This document shows, piece after piece, positions 27,772-43,486 of a stretch of DNA of 64,000 nucleotides; within the stretch, counting starts at the first letter, position 1; each line of letters opens with the position of its first letter. A program made the position numbers and the translations under genes. The notes under the pieces were generated by a model, which saw only the letters and a list, made by a program, of their open reading frames with translations, had not been told where the DNA came from and ran no database searches. Source of the stretch: Nitrospira defluvii. Its GTDB lineage: Bacteria > Nitrospirota > Nitrospiria > Nitrospirales > Nitrospiraceae. The stretch covers positions 1 to 64,000 of the forward strand of contig WYAX01000006.1 in assembly GCA_011525625.1 (NCBI GenBank), read 5' to 3'.

Positions 27772-29031
27772 ATGGCGCCGAAACGAACCGTGCCCCAATT
27801 GGAACAGGCCTTGCGGGAGAAGGCGCGGGAAGTCGATGTGCTGCATCGCATCAGCGAGTCGATCAGCAGCACGCTCGATTTAGAGGCCGTGCTTCGTCAT
27901 ATCGTCGACGTCGTGGTGGAAGCGACGAAGGCCGATGCCTGTCTGTTGTATCTACTGTCCGATAAGCGAGACGAACTGATTTTGCGAGCGTCGAAGAATC
28001 CCCATCCCAAGCTGATCGGTCGCATCACCATCGGGATGGGCGAAGGTATTACCGGCTGGGTCGCGCGAGAACGGACCAGGGTCGTGATTCCAAACAGCGC
28101 CAGCGATGACTCGCGCTTCAAATTTTTTCATAACCTTCCTGAGGACCGCTACCAAGCGTTCGTCTCCGTGCCTATCACGACTAAACAGGAAGTGGTCGGC
28201 GTGATCAATGTGCAGCACAAGCGCTCACGACGCTATCGCACGGATGAATTGGCGCTCCTGTCGACCATTGCGACGCAAGTCGGCGGGGCGATTGAAAATG
28301 CCCGCCTCTATGACCAGATGACGCGGAAGGCGCTCCAGTTGGACACCTTGTCGCAAGTGTCGGAGACCCTCTCCTCCAATCGTTTGATCGAAGACGTGCT
28401 GCAATTGATCGTGACGATGACGGCCCAGATGATGGGATCGAAAATCTGTTCAATCATCTTGTTGGATCAGACGACAGGCGAGCTTCGCATCGCCGCCACG
28501 CAAAGTCTCAGTGAGGAATATCGGCGAAAACCGAATGTGAAGGTCGGCCAGAGCATCAGCGGTCGGGCGGTGCAAGACCGTCGGCCGATCATCGTGCCGG
28601 ATGTGACCAAAGAAGGCTCGTACATGTATCCGGACATGGCCGCGAAGGAAGGGCTCTGTTCGTTGTTGTGTGTGCCGATGCTGGTACGGGAAAAGGCGAT
28701 CGGCGTCATCAATACCTATACGTCCACGCCGCACACCTTCACGGCCGAAGAAGTGAAGCTGATGCAGGCCATCGCCAATCAGGCGGCGATTTCCATCGAG
28801 CACACGACGCTGTTGGAGAAGTCGTTCGAGATGCAGGAGGCGTTACAGGTCCGCAAGCTGCTCGATCGGGCCAAGGGCTATCTCATGCGGGCGAAGCGCC
28901 TGTCCGAAGAAGAGGCATTCAAGCTCATTCAGCGGCAGAGCATGGATCTCCGAAAATCCATGCGGGAAATTGCCGAAGCGATTTTGTTGGCGGGTGAGAT
29001 TGAAGATCGGGCCGATAGGAATAGAGGGTAA
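27772..29031 (+). CDS. GAF-GAF-ANTAR RNA-binding antitermination regulator
   Basis: 419 aa soluble regulator. Residues about 24-180 form a GAF domain (ITIGMGEGITGWVARERTRVVIPN, then SVPITTKQEVVGVINVQHK) and about 200-350 a second (VKVGQSISGRAVQDRRPIIVPDV, then CVPMLVREKAIGVINTYT). Residues about 357-406 are an ANTAR domain: RKLLDRAKGYLMRAKRLSEEEAF, then the RKSMREIAEAILL helix. ANTAR proteins bind twin hexaloop hairpins in nascent RNA and prevent termination; such RNAs lie at 30961, 33000, 40066 and 40220. The GAF ligand is unknown; a signal-dependent partner kinase is not encoded nearby. Translated 7 nt after aroB. Confidence 0.92.
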   Translation: MAPKRTVPQLEQALREKAREVDVLHRISESISSTLDLEAVLRHIVDVVVEATKADACLLYLLSDKRDELILRASKNPHPKLIGRITIGMGEGITGWVARERTRVVIPNSASDDSRFKFFHNLPEDRYQAFVSVPITTKQEVVGVINVQHKRSRRYRTDELALLSTIATQVGGAIENARLYDQMTRKALQLDTLSQVSETLSSNRLIEDVLQLIVTMTAQMMGSKICSIILLDQTTGELRIAATQSLSEEYRRKPNVKVGQSISGRAVQDRRPIIVPDVTKEGSYMYPDMAAKEGLCSLLCVPMLVREKAIGVINTYTSTPHTFTAEEVKLMQAIANQAAISIEHTTLLEKSFEMQEALQVRKLLDRAKGYLMRAKRLSEEEAFKLIQRQSMDLRKSMREIAEAILLAGEIEDRADRNRG

Positions 29032-30947: not shown

Positions 30948-30960
30948 TCGCCAGCTTTTT

Positions 30961-31058
30961 CGGGGACAACGGAGTCTTCGAAAAGTCTCCTTTACAGAGA
31001 TAGCCCAGGACAACGACGTCCTCCGATCCACCGAGGTGGGTCTGAGGACTTTTTTTTT
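30961..31058 (+). promoter_or_regulatory. ANTAR-type antiterminator/terminator leader (nadE)
   Basis: P1 is CGGGGAC-AACGGA-GTCTTCG (30961-30980; 7 bp, two G-U pairs). P2 is AGGAC-AACGAC-GTCCT (31007-31022). Both loops are 6 nt with A1 and G4, the ANTAR recognition rule. The P2 3' arm (31018-31022) is also the first strand of a terminator: GTCCTC 31018-31023 pairs with GAGGAC 31044-31049, with a further inner stem and a tetraloop, then nine T (31050-31058). P2 and terminator exclude each other, so binding of P1-P2 would allow read-through to nadE. Confidence 0.88.
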
Positions 31059-31063
31059 ATTAT

Positions 31064-32999: not shown

Positions 33000-33042
33000 G
33001 ACCGACAACGACGTCGGTCAGCAACACTGGCAATGGCGCCAG
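33000..33042 (+). promoter_or_regulatory. ANTAR-type twin hexaloop motif before the porin-like gene
   Basis: P1 is GACCGAC-AACGAC-GTCGGTC (33000-33019, 7 bp perfect). P2 is CTGGC-AATGGC-GCCAG (33027-33042, 5 bp perfect), 7 nt later. Both loops obey A1/G4. No T-rich terminator overlaps P2. A hairpin at 33052-33085 follows, and TGGCGCC of P2 (33034-33040) could instead pair with GGCGTCA at 33115-33121, covering part of the ribosome-binding site; control may be translational or through a weak terminator. Confidence 0.78.
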
Positions 33043-33120
33043 AGAGACGGGGCTCGCAGATCGTCGGGTACGACGGCTTGGGAGCAGGGCACATTTACTT
33101 CTTCTCTCTTTGGAGGCGTC

Positions 33121-33999
33121 ATGAATATGCTGGTTGGGCGGAAGGCACGGGCATGGGTGTTGGGATTGGCATTGCTGGTGGGTGGCACGGGAAGCGTGCT
33201 CGTCGGGGCACAAGCCGCGACGACGGACGACCTGATGGATACGACCAAGCACCCCGTGTCGGTGACCATGGCGATGCAGGCCGACAGTTTTTTCGGATTC
33301 AACCCATCCATCTACGGCACCTACGGATTGACCGATAACATCGCCCTCGCCTTCAACTTCACCTATTGGACCATGATCAACGGCGTGGGCGTGCATGACA
33401 ATGCGCCCTGGCTCGAAACAGACGTGGGTCTGAACTTTACGTTTCTCGACAAACGCCTGTCCGTCACCCCGATGATCGGGTTTGTGCATGGCAGCCTCCT
33501 GTCTTCGCGCGGCGGCTTCTTTCCCAACGGCGGCGGCAGTGTGAATGAGCGGACCACGGCCTTTGAGGGTGCGGTGCCGAACATCATCGCGAACTATGTG
33601 GACGATCGTTTCGAAGGCGAGTTCTATCTGGGCTACTACAAGGCCATCCGTAGCGAAGGCGGCAGCGGAGGCGGCGGGGCGACCGGGTGCAGCGGGCTCG
33701 TCGATACCAATTGCTTGGGCACCAGTCAGACCGGTGGCCGGGGCACGTGGGACTTTCTCCACTACTGGGTCAGCGCGGGTGTGCGCATGAACAGCATGTG
33801 GTCCCTCGGCGCGCACTATGAACATCTGCTGACCACGCGCGACAGCAGTGCTCCGGGCGCAGCGCAAGACTATTATCGCTGGATTGGTCCGTACGTCGAA
33901 ATGAAGTTGCCGGGCAACATGGCTTTCCGGTTCACGGCGGGCAAAGATCTGACAGACAATCAAGACTTCTATAAGCTGAAGTTCACGAAGACGTTTTAA
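33121..33999 (+). CDS. Outer-membrane channel-like protein of the nitrogen cluster
   Basis: 292 aa. A signal peptide (about 1-33, cleaved near AQAATT) is followed by alternating hydrophobic/aromatic strands and a terminal Phe (KFTKTF), typical of an outer-membrane beta barrel. A Gly/Ser-rich loop (about residues 178-190) with two nearby Cys looks like an external loop. GGAGG 33112-33116 before ATG. I cannot name the family. Between an ANTAR motif and amtB, so uptake of a small nitrogen compound is plausible but not shown. Confidence 0.75.
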   Translation: MNMLVGRKARAWVLGLALLVGGTGSVLVGAQAATTDDLMDTTKHPVSVTMAMQADSFFGFNPSIYGTYGLTDNIALAFNFTYWTMINGVGVHDNAPWLETDVGLNFTFLDKRLSVTPMIGFVHGSLLSSRGGFFPNGGGSVNERTTAFEGAVPNIIANYVDDRFEGEFYLGYYKAIRSEGGSGGGGATGCSGLVDTNCLGTSQTGGRGTWDFLHYWVSAGVRMNSMWSLGAHYEHLLTTRDSSAPGAAQDYYRWIGPYVEMKLPGNMAFRFTAGKDLTDNQDFYKLKFTKTF

Positions 34000-40017: not shown

Positions 40018-40046
40018 TTGACGAATCTTTGAGGCGGTGGTATACA
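40018..40046 (+). promoter_or_regulatory. Promoter of the nirC-cynS-nirA leader
   Basis: TTGACG 40018-40023, exactly 17 nt, TATACA 40041-40046; predicted start near 40053. This lies 26 nt after the glnA stop and 20 nt before the first ANTAR hairpin, so the long leader has its own promoter. Confidence 0.75.
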
Positions 40047-40065
40047 TGCCGAATGCGGGTGAGCA

Positions 40066-40155
40066 CAGGCAACGGCGCCTGGTCGTAAACCTGCTCCATA
40101 TACGGTACACGGACAATGGCGTCCGTCATTCTTCCAAGAGTGGCGGACGCCGTTT
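40066..40155 (+). promoter_or_regulatory. ANTAR-type attenuator 1 of the nirC leader
   Basis: P1 CAGGC-AACGGC-GCCTG (40066-40081) and P2 ACGGAC-AATGGC-GTCCGT (40109-40126) both have perfect stems and A1/G4 hexaloops, 27 nt apart. P2 overlaps a 15 bp terminator: GGCGTCCG 40118-40125 pairs with CGGACGCC 40144-40151, continuing inward to a TCCA tetraloop, followed by GTTTTCGTTT. It might otherwise be taken for the glnA terminator; the P1-P2 pair makes it a regulated one. Confidence 0.87.
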
Positions 40156-40163
40156 TCGTTTCT

Positions 40164-40272
40164 GTCGACGTTGAAGTCGGCTGACAGCACCGGGCGAGGT
40201 TGCCGCAACCTGGCCAAGCAGGACAAAGACGTCCTTTTCCCCACTTGCGGGGATAAGGACGTCTTTTTTTTT
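40164..40272 (+). promoter_or_regulatory. ANTAR-type attenuator 2 of the nirC leader
   Basis: P2 AGGAC-AAAGAC-GTCCT (40220-40235) has an A1/G4 hexaloop and shares bases with a terminator: GACGTCCTT 40228-40236 with AAGGACGTC 40255-40263, an inner TCCCC/GGGGA stem, then nine T (40264-40272). A possible P1 is GTCGAC-GTTGAA-GTCGGC (40164-40181), but its loop has G at position 1 and it is 38 nt away, so P1 is uncertain. It stands in series with attenuator 1. Confidence 0.75.
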
Positions 40273-40310
40273 AATTGTGCGGGCGCAGTGACCACCGAAA
40301 GGAGAGCCTC

Positions 40311-41141
40311 ATGCATACGGCAGATCACGAGCGGATTGCAGGGGTGGCAGCGAGGAAGTGGTCGTTTTTTGAGCGGTCCTCAGGTGGATATCTCATTCTC
40401 TCGGCGTTAGCCGGCATCTATCTCGGGTTTGGAATGGCGTTGATCTTCAGTCTGGGAGGACCTCTGGCTGCGGCCGGTTCTCCGGTGGTCAAACTGATCA
40501 TGGGCGTATCGTTCGGGGTGGCGTTGACGCTCGTCGTCTTTGCGGGGGCCGAGCTGTTCACCGGCAACAATCTGATCGGCGCTATCGGTGGCCTATCGAG
40601 AAGTCTCTCCTGGGGCCAAGCCCTGCAACTCAATGCCTGGTCGTGGCTTGGCAATCTGGTGGGATCGTTGGGGTTGGCTTGGCTCATCGTGCAATCGGGC
40701 GTCTTTGCGAAGGGGCCGACGACGGATCTGATCGAGAAAGTTGCTGCGGTCAAAATGTCGTTGCCTGCCTGGGAACTATTCGTGCGGGGCATCCTCTGCA
40801 ATTGGCTCATTTGTCTGGCGATCTGGATGACGGGTCGCACGACCAGCGATACGGCGAAGATTCTGCTGATTTTCTGGTGTCTGTTCGCCTTCATCGGCAC
40901 GGGGTTTGAGCACAGCATCGCCAATCAATCGTTGCTGGGGATGGCGCTGTTCCTGCCGCATGATGCCGCGGTGACGTGGGGGGCCTTCTGGTACAACCAG
41001 CTGTTTGTGGTGCTGGGAAATCTGGTGGGCGGCGGGCTGTTCGTCGGGGGGCTCTATTGGATGGTGAGCCCCTATCGGGTGACGGCAGCGACGGCGGCTC
41101 CGGTGTCTCAATCGGTGGCGTCGGTCGTAACGGGATCCTAA
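40311..41141 (+). CDS. nirC: Formate/nitrite family channel, NirC-like
   Basis: 276 aa, six membrane helices, pentameric FNT fold. FAGAELFTGNN, LVGSLGLAWLI, RGILCNWLICLAIWMTGRT and the central GFEHSIANQS (conserved His) are FNT hallmarks. ATG 40311 follows AAAGGAGAG. With nirA in the same operon, nitrite import for assimilation is the likely role; formate transport is not excluded by sequence. Confidence 0.92.
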   Translation: MHTADHERIAGVAARKWSFFERSSGGYLILSALAGIYLGFGMALIFSLGGPLAAAGSPVVKLIMGVSFGVALTLVVFAGAELFTGNNLIGAIGGLSRSLSWGQALQLNAWSWLGNLVGSLGLAWLIVQSGVFAKGPTTDLIEKVAAVKMSLPAWELFVRGILCNWLICLAIWMTGRTTSDTAKILLIFWCLFAFIGTGFEHSIANQSLLGMALFLPHDAAVTWGAFWYNQLFVVLGNLVGGGLFVGGLYWMVSPYRVTAATAAPVSQSVASVVTGS

Positions 41142-41194: not shown

Positions 41195-41635
41195 ATGGAG
41201 AAAACAGCGGTACGCAAGGCGATCCGGGCGCAACGGTTGAACAAGAACGTCACGATTGCAGAAGTAGCGAAGACGGTCGGGAAGAATCCGACGTTCGTCG
41301 CCGCCGCGTTGAACGGCAATCATCGCCTGTCACCGGAGGACGCGGGCAAAGTGGGGAAGTTGCTCGATCTGGACAAAGAACAAATCAGTTCCCTCAGCAC
41401 GTTCCCCGTCCGGGCCGATTTCCCGAATGCGACGGATCCTTTCAAGTATCGCCTGTTGGAAGTCATCGGTGTCTACGGCGACTCATTGCGGGAGATGGCG
41501 AACGAAATGTTCGGTGACGGGATCATGAGCGCCATTGATTTTACCTTGGATATGGAAAAGGTGACCGGCAGCCAGGGCGAGGCCCGGTGCAAGATCACGC
41601 TCAATGGGAAGTGGCTCGAATACAAAACGTTCTAG
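41195..41635 (+). CDS. cynS: Cyanate hydratase (cyanase)
   Basis: 146 aa. Converts cyanate and bicarbonate to CO2 and carbamate, which yields ammonia. An N-terminal HTH-like domain (TIAEVAKTVGKNPTFVAAALNGNHRLSPEDA) precedes the catalytic part FKYRLLEVIGVYGDSLREM and FGDGIMSAIDFTLDMEKV, which contains the Arg, Glu and Ser of the cyanase active site. ATG 41195 after GGGAGG; an upstream open frame from 40976 is a shadow of nirC. 53 nt after nirC. Confidence 0.95.
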   Translation: MEKTAVRKAIRAQRLNKNVTIAEVAKTVGKNPTFVAAALNGNHRLSPEDAGKVGKLLDLDKEQISSLSTFPVRADFPNATDPFKYRLLEVIGVYGDSLREMANEMFGDGIMSAIDFTLDMEKVTGSQGEARCKITLNGKWLEYKTF

Positions 41636-41687: not shown

Positions 41688-41882
41688 ATGAAGACGACTG
41701 CAGAAACGGCGGTGTTGACGTTGCTCGAGCGACAGGCGCCCCAGTCCTTCGAAGAGTTGGTGGCCTTGTCCGGTCTCAGCGCATCACAGATCTTGTTGGT
41801 GGTGGATCGACTGAGTCGGGAGGGCGCGGTGGTGTTGAGGAAATCCGGACCGGACTATTCCGTCGCATTGGGGGGCGCGTGA
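41688..41882 (+). CDS. Small winged-helix protein coupled to nirA
   Basis: 64 aa. ETAVLTLLERQAPQSFEELVALSGLSASQILLVVDRLSREGAVVLRKSG fits a winged helix-turn-helix with a short wing, as in MarR or ROK DNA-binding parts, without an effector domain. AGGGAGGACACC precedes the ATG, and the stop shares one base with the nirA start (TGATG), so the two are translated together. Possible roles are local repressor or partner of nirA; function unknown. Confidence 0.8.
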   Translation: MKTTAETAVLTLLERQAPQSFEELVALSGLSASQILLVVDRLSREGAVVLRKSGPDYSVALGGA

Positions 41883-43486
41883 TGAACAAAATTGAAGCGA
41901 TTAAGTCGGAACAAGACGGATTATCGGTTCGGGACAGGCTGGCACACTATGCCCAAGCCGGGTGGGAGGCCATCCCGGAAAACGATATTCAACGGTTGAA
42001 ATGGTACGGCCTGTTCTTGCGGAATCCCACGCCCGGGTACTTCATGCTGCGGGTGCGCATGCCGGGCGGCCACACGACGGCGGCTCAACTCCGCGTACTG
42101 GCGGACATCGCGCTGGCGCATGGCAACGGCGTGATCGACATGACGACCAGGCAACAAGTGCAAGTGCGCCATCTGACGATCGCAGCGGTGCCTACGGTGT
42201 TCGACAAGCTGACGGAGGCGGGGCTCACGTCGATGCAAACCGGCATGGACAGCGTGCGGAATATCATGACGTGCCCAGTAGCCGGTCTGAATCCGAACGA
42301 ACTGCTCGACGGAACCGACATCGTGCGTGCGATCAATCACGAAGTGCTGGGCAATGGGGCCTATACGAATTTGCCGCGCAAGTGCAATATCGCGGTGACG
42401 GGCTGCGCGGACAATTGTCTCCACACGGAGACGCAAGACATCGCGTTGGTGCCGGCCTATCACGACTTGGGCCACGACAAGTGTTACGGCTACAACGTGT
42501 TGGTAGGCGGGAAGTTGGGCTCCGGCGGCTATCGTATCGCCAGTTCGTTGGATATGTTCGTCAATCCGGCGGAGGCCTTTGAGGTGTGCCGGACGCTGCT
42601 GCACATCTATCGGGATCACGGGCCACGAGAGAATCGCACGCAAGCGCGGTTCGCATTTCTGGTCGAAGCCTGGGGCGAGGCACGGCTGCGTCATGAGGTG
42701 GAGGTGCGGATGGGGCGAGCGCTGCCTGCTGCGGGCGTCGATGCTCGGGCGGCGGCGGAGCGCGATCACATCGGCATCTTCCGCCAAAAGCAACGTGGCA
42801 TGAACTATGTCGGGCTCAAAGTGCTGGTGGGACGGATCAAAGCCGCCGAGTTACGCGGCATTGCCGGGTTGGCGGATCGATATGGGACAGGTGAAGTGCG
42901 ACTCTCACCCGCGCAAGCGTTCGTCATCCCACATATCAGCGACCGGCTGGTGGGTGAGCTGGCGGAAGAGCCGCTGGTGAAGCAATTCGCGTACAATCCA
43001 TCGGCCCTCTACAAGGGACTGGTGAGTTGCGTCGGCAGCGACTACTGCAACCTGGCCGTCATTGAAACCAAAACCCGGGCCGTCGAAACGGCGCGGACGC
43101 TGGAGCGGAAGTTGGGCGATACCCTCAAGCCGATCACCGTCCATTGGTCAGGCTGTCCCGCCGGCTGCGGCAATCATCTCGTGGCGGATGTTGGATTGCT
43201 CGGCAAAAAGGCCCGGGTGAACGGCAAAGTCGTCGATGCTGTCGACATCTTTGTCGGTGGCCGTTCGGGGCCGGATCCGAAATTGGCCACGAAGATCATG
43301 GAGGATGTGCCCTGCGACAAGCTTCCGGCGGTACTGGAAAACGTGATGCCGTATCATACGCGGGACAAAATGCATCGGGTTCGCGGAAAGGTTGTGCCCA
43401 AGGCCGGGAGCGCGGCAAAGCCGGCGTCAGACCATGAGGGGGCCGTCATCCTGCCCGGCCTCACACCGCAACCCTTTTCGGCGTAA
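41882..43486 (+). CDS. nirA: Ferredoxin-nitrite reductase, assimilatory
   Basis: 534 aa siroheme [4Fe-4S] enzyme reducing nitrite to ammonia with six electrons. Ferrodoxin-like half domains start with RLKWYGLFLRNPTPGYFMLRVRMPGG; the nitrite/sulfite reductase repeats include RNIMTCPVAGLNPNEL and KCNIAVTGCADNC. Cluster ligands appear as CVGSDYC (about residue 382) and GCPAGCG (about 424). It could in principle be a sulfite reductase, but the nirC/cynS context favours nitrite. Last gene of the operon. Confidence 0.93.
   Translation: MNKIEAIKSEQDGLSVRDRLAHYAQAGWEAIPENDIQRLKWYGLFLRNPTPGYFMLRVRMPGGHTTAAQLRVLADIALAHGNGVIDMTTRQQVQVRHLTIAAVPTVFDKLTEAGLTSMQTGMDSVRNIMTCPVAGLNPNELLDGTDIVRAINHEVLGNGAYTNLPRKCNIAVTGCADNCLHTETQDIALVPAYHDLGHDKCYGYNVLVGGKLGSGGYRIASSLDMFVNPAEAFEVCRTLLHIYRDHGPRENRTQARFAFLVEAWGEARLRHEVEVRMGRALPAAGVDARAAAERDHIGIFRQKQRGMNYVGLKVLVGRIKAAELRGIAGLADRYGTGEVRLSPAQAFVIPHISDRLVGELAEEPLVKQFAYNPSALYKGLVSCVGSDYCNLAVIETKTRAVETARTLERKLGDTLKPITVHWSGCPAGCGNHLVADVGLLGKKARVNGKVVDAVDIFVGGRSGPDPKLATKIMEDVPCDKLPAVLENVMPYHTRDKMHRVRGKVVPKAGSAAKPASDHEGAVILPGLTPQPFSA

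Follow-up and report, generated by a model that had tools for sequence, protein, structure and literature searches.

Two ANTAR-Type Transcription Attenuators Likely Arranged in Series Ahead of the nirC-cynS-nirA Operon in Nitrospira

Introduction

In Nitrospira, nitrite can be used as a fuel, yet it is also a nitrogen source. How might the genes that assimilate it be kept shut, and does the leader ahead of the nirC-cynS-nirA operon carry two ANTAR attenuators, one behind the other? The DNA analysed here, a 64 kb window (by which we mean the whole stretch) from a 4.6 Mb genome of the genus of Nitrospira defluvii, holds this operon within a nitrogen locus that comprises genes for a GAF-GAF-ANTAR protein, nadE, a DUF6733 protein, amtB, glnB, glnD, glnA, nirC, cynS and nirA (nadE, glnD and glnA were named from their own sequence, not via a family search). 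The operon genes are as follows:

40311..41141, + strand: nirC, formate/nitrite transporter (Pfam PF01226, E 1.5e-65)
41195..41635, + strand: cynS, cyanase (Pfam PF02560 and PF21291)
41882..43486, + strand: nirA-type nitrite/sulfite reductase (Pfam PF01077 and PF03460)

An earlier note on this DNA had described a promoter, a P1–P2 pair overlapping a terminator and a further P2 overlapping a second terminator with nine T, and all of these are present where, or close to where, it had placed them. The layout matches the one described for ANTAR antitermination (Ramesh 2012, PMC3369931; Stewart and van Tilbeurgh, PMC3369936; Walshe 2022, PMC8934654), in which the ANTAR dimer meets the hexaloops one after another (Walshe 2022, PMC8934654).

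Results and Discussion

Anatomy of the leader

The following features were found on the + strand between glnA and nirC:

40019..40047, +: promoter, TTGACG-N17-TATACA, read from the sequence and kept in the compared leaders
40055..40094, +: region of P1, with the P1 hairpin (CAGGC-AACGGC-GCCTG, 5 bp) at 40066-40081, by fold and covariation
40055-60/40089-94, +: basal helix beneath P1, by fold and covariation
40109..40126, +: P2, antiterminator hairpin ACGGAC-AATGGC-GTCCGT, 6 bp, stem invariant in 25/25 leaders
40118..40155, +: T1, intrinsic terminator of gate 1, stem 40118-40151, then GTTTT
40164..40181, +: P1', first hairpin of gate 2, GTCGAC-GTTGAA-GTCGGC, an R1/G4 hexaloop hairpin
40193..40215, +: P3, hairpin in the spacer between P1' and P2', by fold, its loop varying among leaders
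40220..40235, +: P2', second antiterminator hairpin, AGGAC-AAAGAC-GTCCT, 5 bp, four of five pairs invariant in 25/25 leaders
40225..40272, +: T2, intrinsic terminator of gate 2, stem 40225-40266, with T9 at 40264-40272

The promoter lies 28 bp downstream of the glnA stop. A strict sigma-70 consensus scan did not detect it because of its TATACA; the comparison of leaders shows that the site is kept, in the form TTGAC...GGTATA common to the genus leaders tested (GGTACAT in L005/L006). Could the hairpins simply mark the end of glnA operon transcription, with nirC transcribed from elsewhere? The terminators do lie directly 3' of glnA. However, a conserved promoter stands upstream of both, little room is left for another downstream, both the sequence and the structure of the antiterminator hairpins are kept, and the double gate persists where nrtABC or cynS replaces nirC as the first gene, which together make this reading very improbable.

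Gate 1 has A1 and G4 in both of its loops (AACGGC, AATGGC), and the 3' arm of P2 is shared with an intrinsic terminator, as part of the 5' arm of T1. The T1 stem has 16 pairs (18 in the fold) and is directly followed on its 3' side by GTTTTCGTTT. Gate 2 repeats the overlap: its A1/G4 loop, AAAGAC, together with the 3' arm of P2', begins T2, whose stem is paired at 17/18 positions and which ends 38 bp before the nirC start. T1 (−29.9 kcal/mol) and T2 (−28.8 kcal/mol) by far exceed P2 (−8.1 kcal/mol) and P2' (−5.6 kcal/mol) in stability, as expected if a protein would have to hold the antiterminators.

The second gate had been described as a further P2 standing alone; P2' is real, but it has a hexaloop hairpin of its own, P1', which had been overlooked, as had P3. 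At loop position 1, P1' has G here and in most relatives and A in some, with G4 and the GAC/GTC top present. Gate 2 is therefore a variant and not a canonical element, which lowers its membership of the class but not its likeness in working. Its spacing also differs. The P1'–P2' loop distance is 55 nt, with P3 in between, whereas single elements mostly have 39–44 nt; the overall range is 45–55 nt with P3, or 24–25 nt in some genera. The linkers are ~27 nt in gate 1 and ~38 nt in gate 2.

Two other readings of the leader were considered and rejected. A leader peptide (ATG in the P2 loop, a 22-codon frame ending just past P1') was dismissed because many relatives have AAAGGC in the P2 loop, and P3 was dismissed as the true P1' because neither the length nor the sequence of its loop is constant. 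In four leaders (L100, L174, L200 and L201), an R1/G4 hexaloop lies closer to P2', so that the spacer hairpin that serves the gate may shift.

Conservation and covariation

Is this arrangement more than chance? When the leader was shuffled with dinucleotides kept, gates (an A1/G4 hexaloop hairpin, an overlapping terminator stem and a T-run) appeared in 0/3000 sequences, and under a strict gate test of both strands of the window, only the two gates of the nirC leader passed. The fold z-scores of the leader halves were −5.4 and −5.6.

In an alignment of 25 leaders, two of them from outside the genus, the proportion of paired cells was 98.4% for P1, 87.7% for the basal helix, 94% for P1' and 77.9% for P3. 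Two-sided changes occurred in P1, the basal helix, P3 (six pairs) and the upper T2 stem; P2 is invariant and thus uninformative for covariation. The named structures outscored almost every one of 500 shuffles and every slid control, and the antiterminator and terminator forms both exceeded the controls. When unrelated regulon elements were compared, the P1 and P2 stems showed strong covariation, the percentage paired being biased by the selection of these elements for pairing, and the P1–P2 loop distance is mostly 39–44 nt.

The second P2, whose absence from close relatives would have counted against a double gate, was found in 25/25 aligned leaders. Furthermore, the 5' strands used by the antiterminators alone are conserved at 100% in P2 and 97% in P2', compared with 49–71% in the flanks (49–65% next to P2'), which indicates that more than terminator function alone is at work. 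These values bear on the possibility that gate 1 alone is regulated. T2 would then be an ordinary reserve terminator, serving for instance the glnA operon, and the P2' hexaloop would be left over from a gate duplication. P1' breaks the A1 rule and lacks the canonical spacing, and T1 and T2, being downstream of glnA, could end glnA transcripts too. On the other hand, the P2' strand so well conserved amid poorly conserved neighbours is one that T2 does not use, P2' is retained in seven genera, and a plain T2 downstream of the sole visible promoter and 38 bp from the nirC start would silence the operon. We consider this alternative unlikely.

Support for P1' came from the spacers. A P1'-type hairpin (six-base loop, R1, G4 and a GAC/GTC-type top) is present in the spacer of 33/39 double leaders, with ~0.1 expected from spacer shuffles, although these 39 leaders share kinship and are not independent cases; the other 6/39 failed this strict criterion. 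The P1' stems vary between genera, and the rule of top and loop is constant.

In a covariance-model scan, proposed earlier as a check, the leader of nadE scored 45.1 bits, and gate 2 had a weak 21.9 bits in a search of its own genome with RNA model R1; this match pairs P2' with the 3' arm of T2 and not with P1'. The low score is due to the short linker of the model. At gathering thresholds, a scan with Rfam 15 gave no match.

Distribution among relatives

Both gates are present in 27/29 genomes of the genus, in 23 nirC leaders and in four others (G012, G016, G002 and G004) in which cynS or an nrtA-like gene takes the place of nirC at the head of the operon. The remaining two genomes (G006 and G024) are 84% and 89% complete. 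N. defluvii carries the same leader. One of the four, G004, had been scored as single-gated by the pattern search, which was rejected since its P2' loop is ATCGAC. Among 396 genomes of the phylum, the pattern search found double gates in seven genera of the family, ahead of nirC, nrtABC or cynS, and matches outside the family resemble chance.

In a related genus (L005:11350-11490), a further dual hexaloop overlaps a terminator-like hairpin 3' of cynS, which may give that operon three gates.

Another double ANTAR leader, unrelated to that of nirC, was seen ahead of lipoprotein-like genes in four genomes (L209-L212; G025, G381, G344 and G111); a Pfam search of two of the lipoprotein-like proteins (L209 and L211) gave no match. 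The loop corresponding to that of P1' reads GATGAC, GATGAT, AATGAT and AATGAG in different species with this leader, so that A and G seem interchangeable at its position 1.

The regulator

Which protein could open these gates? A likely regulator is encoded in the same locus:

27772..29031, + strand: GAF-GAF-ANTAR protein, start codon uncertain (PF03861, E 4.9e-19)

It is the only ANTAR protein in the genome, and each of the 29/29 genus genomes has exactly one. Its ANTAR domain aligns with those of Rv1626, EutV, NasR and AmiR and shares the motif RK..(R/K)AKG.L with EutV and Rv1626. When the occurrence of RNA model R1 was compared with that of the ANTAR domain in 118 family genomes, 85 had both, 21 had neither and 6 + 6 were discordant (Fisher p 6e-13, with kinship among genomes ignored); nine of the twelve discordant cases were assemblies <90% complete.

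In one genus of the family (g2; e.g., G054, G063 and G070), the ANTAR gene and the RNA element are both absent from many genomes, from which the whole system appears to have been lost; one member (G185) has kept one RNA element without an ANTAR protein.

A reading with two regulators was also weighed, in which T1 answers the ANTAR protein and T2 answers another RNA-binding factor or signal via P1' and P3. In its favour, loop position 1 of P1' differs, the spacing is different and P3 adds one more covarying helix. However, P2' has almost the same form as P2 and as its counterparts in other regulon leaders, the GAC/GTC top and G4 recur in P1', and A1 and G1 alternate by species in the independent double leader. 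A second ANTAR protein was looked for in the genome and was absent. We therefore regard two regulators as quite improbable, and most likely, judging from sequence, one nitrogen-responsive ANTAR regulator would have to open both terminators.

The first GAF domain of the ANTAR protein is nearest, among solved structures, to PtsP-type GAF domains, a likeness that hints at sensing of glutamine or nitrogen status. With the neighbouring glnB also considered, glutamine, 2-oxoglutarate and PII are plausible candidate signals.

Proposed mechanism

Anatomy, conservation, covariation and co-occurrence with the genome's sole ANTAR protein thus back the serial double gate that the earlier note had proposed. 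It is likely that the leader consists of two ANTAR-type transcription attenuators in series, opened by the single GAF-GAF-ANTAR protein; the binding, the co-transcriptional switching, the nitrogen-status signal and the purpose are what we infer. A polymerase starting at ~40054 would make P1 and then either P2 or T1, and next P1' and P3, followed by either P2' or T2. In the default state, transcription would be halted by T1 and T2 near 40155 and 40272. The active GAF-GAF-ANTAR protein would bind P1 and then P2, and P1' and then P2'; with P2 and P2' held, both terminators would be prevented and nirC-cynS-nirA would be made. Any polymerase that runs on from the nadE-amtB-glnB-glnD-glnA operon, which has one such gate of its own, would likewise need to get past the two gates. 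The leak would be the product of the two gates, so that less nitrite would be assimilated through leakage in a cell whose fuel may be nitrite. The very tight control suggested earlier for this operon is therefore plausible, since two gates multiply the leak, and the purpose is probably to keep the genes tightly shut until nitrogen is scarce. That the double gate is kept across the family, whichever of nirC, nrtABC or cynS leads, suggests that the cell pays a price when fuel nitrite leaks into assimilation.

Several points count against this reading: P1' mostly has G1, where A is the published consensus, its loop distance to P2' is beyond the narrow range of gate 1, 6/39 spacers lack a strict P1', and gate 2 scores weakly with the covariance model. 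In the EutV system, an A-to-U change at loop position 1 impaired EutV-dependent induction, and A-to-G is not among the changes described (PMC3369931). EutV is also sensitive to linker length: the eut linkers are 5–12 nt, and linkers of 3 or 14 nt impaired induction (PMC3369931). Could the gates differ in threshold? A small amount of active ANTAR protein would be enough to open gate 1, and gate 2 would need more, the G1-G4 hexaloops being a second, weaker class of ANTAR target, and the result would be a two-step, switch-like nitrogen valve in an organism that oxidizes nitrite. We hold this idea to be possible but doubtful. The pairing of A1 and G1 gates in one RNA offers a natural test of what ANTAR domains need in a hexaloop and of why attenuators stack.

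Comparison with known systems

In tandem riboswitch and T-box leaders, two serial attenuators sharpen or tighten control, and a small molecule or tRNA is sensed directly; by comparison, the proposed sensor of the nirC leader is a protein. The closest likeness in anatomy is to EutV and the eut genes of Enterococcus faecalis (PMC3369931, PMC8934654), with two A1/G4 hexaloop hairpins, the second overlapping an intrinsic terminator, the same ANTAR domain family and one regulator for several gated genes. In eut, however, each of four genes has a single gate ahead of it, the linkers are 5–12 nt and the protein is REC-ANTAR, whereas the nirC leader has two gates, linkers of ~27 and ~38 nt, one P1 that is mostly G1 and a GAF-GAF-ANTAR protein. 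NasR/nasF of Klebsiella and NasT/nasA of Paracoccus likewise place nitrate/nitrite assimilation under ANTAR control via leader hairpins and a terminator (PMC3369936, PMC5424462), but each has one gate (two hairpins), and sensing involves a NIT domain (NasR) or the partner NasS (NasT), not GAF.

In Desulfotomaculum acetoxidans, six nitrogen transcription units are predicted to contain at least 13 ANTAR attenuators (PMC3369931), so that several gates per unit are not unprecedented and this species may hold a precedent for serial gates. Among the open-licence literature, we found no report of ANTAR control in Nitrospira or of serial ANTAR gates in one leader. Within that literature, the element and mechanism are known (EutV, NasR), and the serial arrangement with a mostly G1 loop in P1' is new.

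The rest of the regulon

Two further ANTAR elements in the window, both overlooked earlier, lie in the same locus:

30957..31060, + strand: single ANTAR attenuator before nadE-DUF6733-amtB-glnB-glnD-glnA (P1 AACGGA, P2 AACGAC, terminator with nine T)
33002..33125, + strand: dual A1/G4 hexaloop (AACGAC, AATGGC; hexaloops at 33002-33042) without a terminator, before DUF6733-amtB, with a weak score

The convincing elements of the genome are the nadE leader, the nirC leader and the weakly scored but conserved element at 33002-33042. The serial gates had been called unusual, which holds within this genome, where the nadE leader has one gate, but throughout the family this operon has them as a rule. 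Relatives have one-gate leaders ahead of porin-like and urea-transporter-like genes and of amtB, and the regulon leaders checked other than the nirC type mostly have a single gate; two gates therefore mark mainly the nitrite/nitrate/cyanate operon. The regulon genes are nitrogen genes. ANTAR regulation, worked out so far in a handful of species, would extend to Nitrospirota with a defined regulon, and a candidate for the deciding protein, GAF-GAF-ANTAR, can be named.

In the element at 33002-33125, the 3' arm of P2 can pair with the Shine-Dalgarno region before DUF6733-amtB, and the hexaloop and ribosome-site sequences are conserved in N. defluvii (L002). From its pairing potential, it looks like a translational ANTAR switch, which could mask or free the ribosome site.
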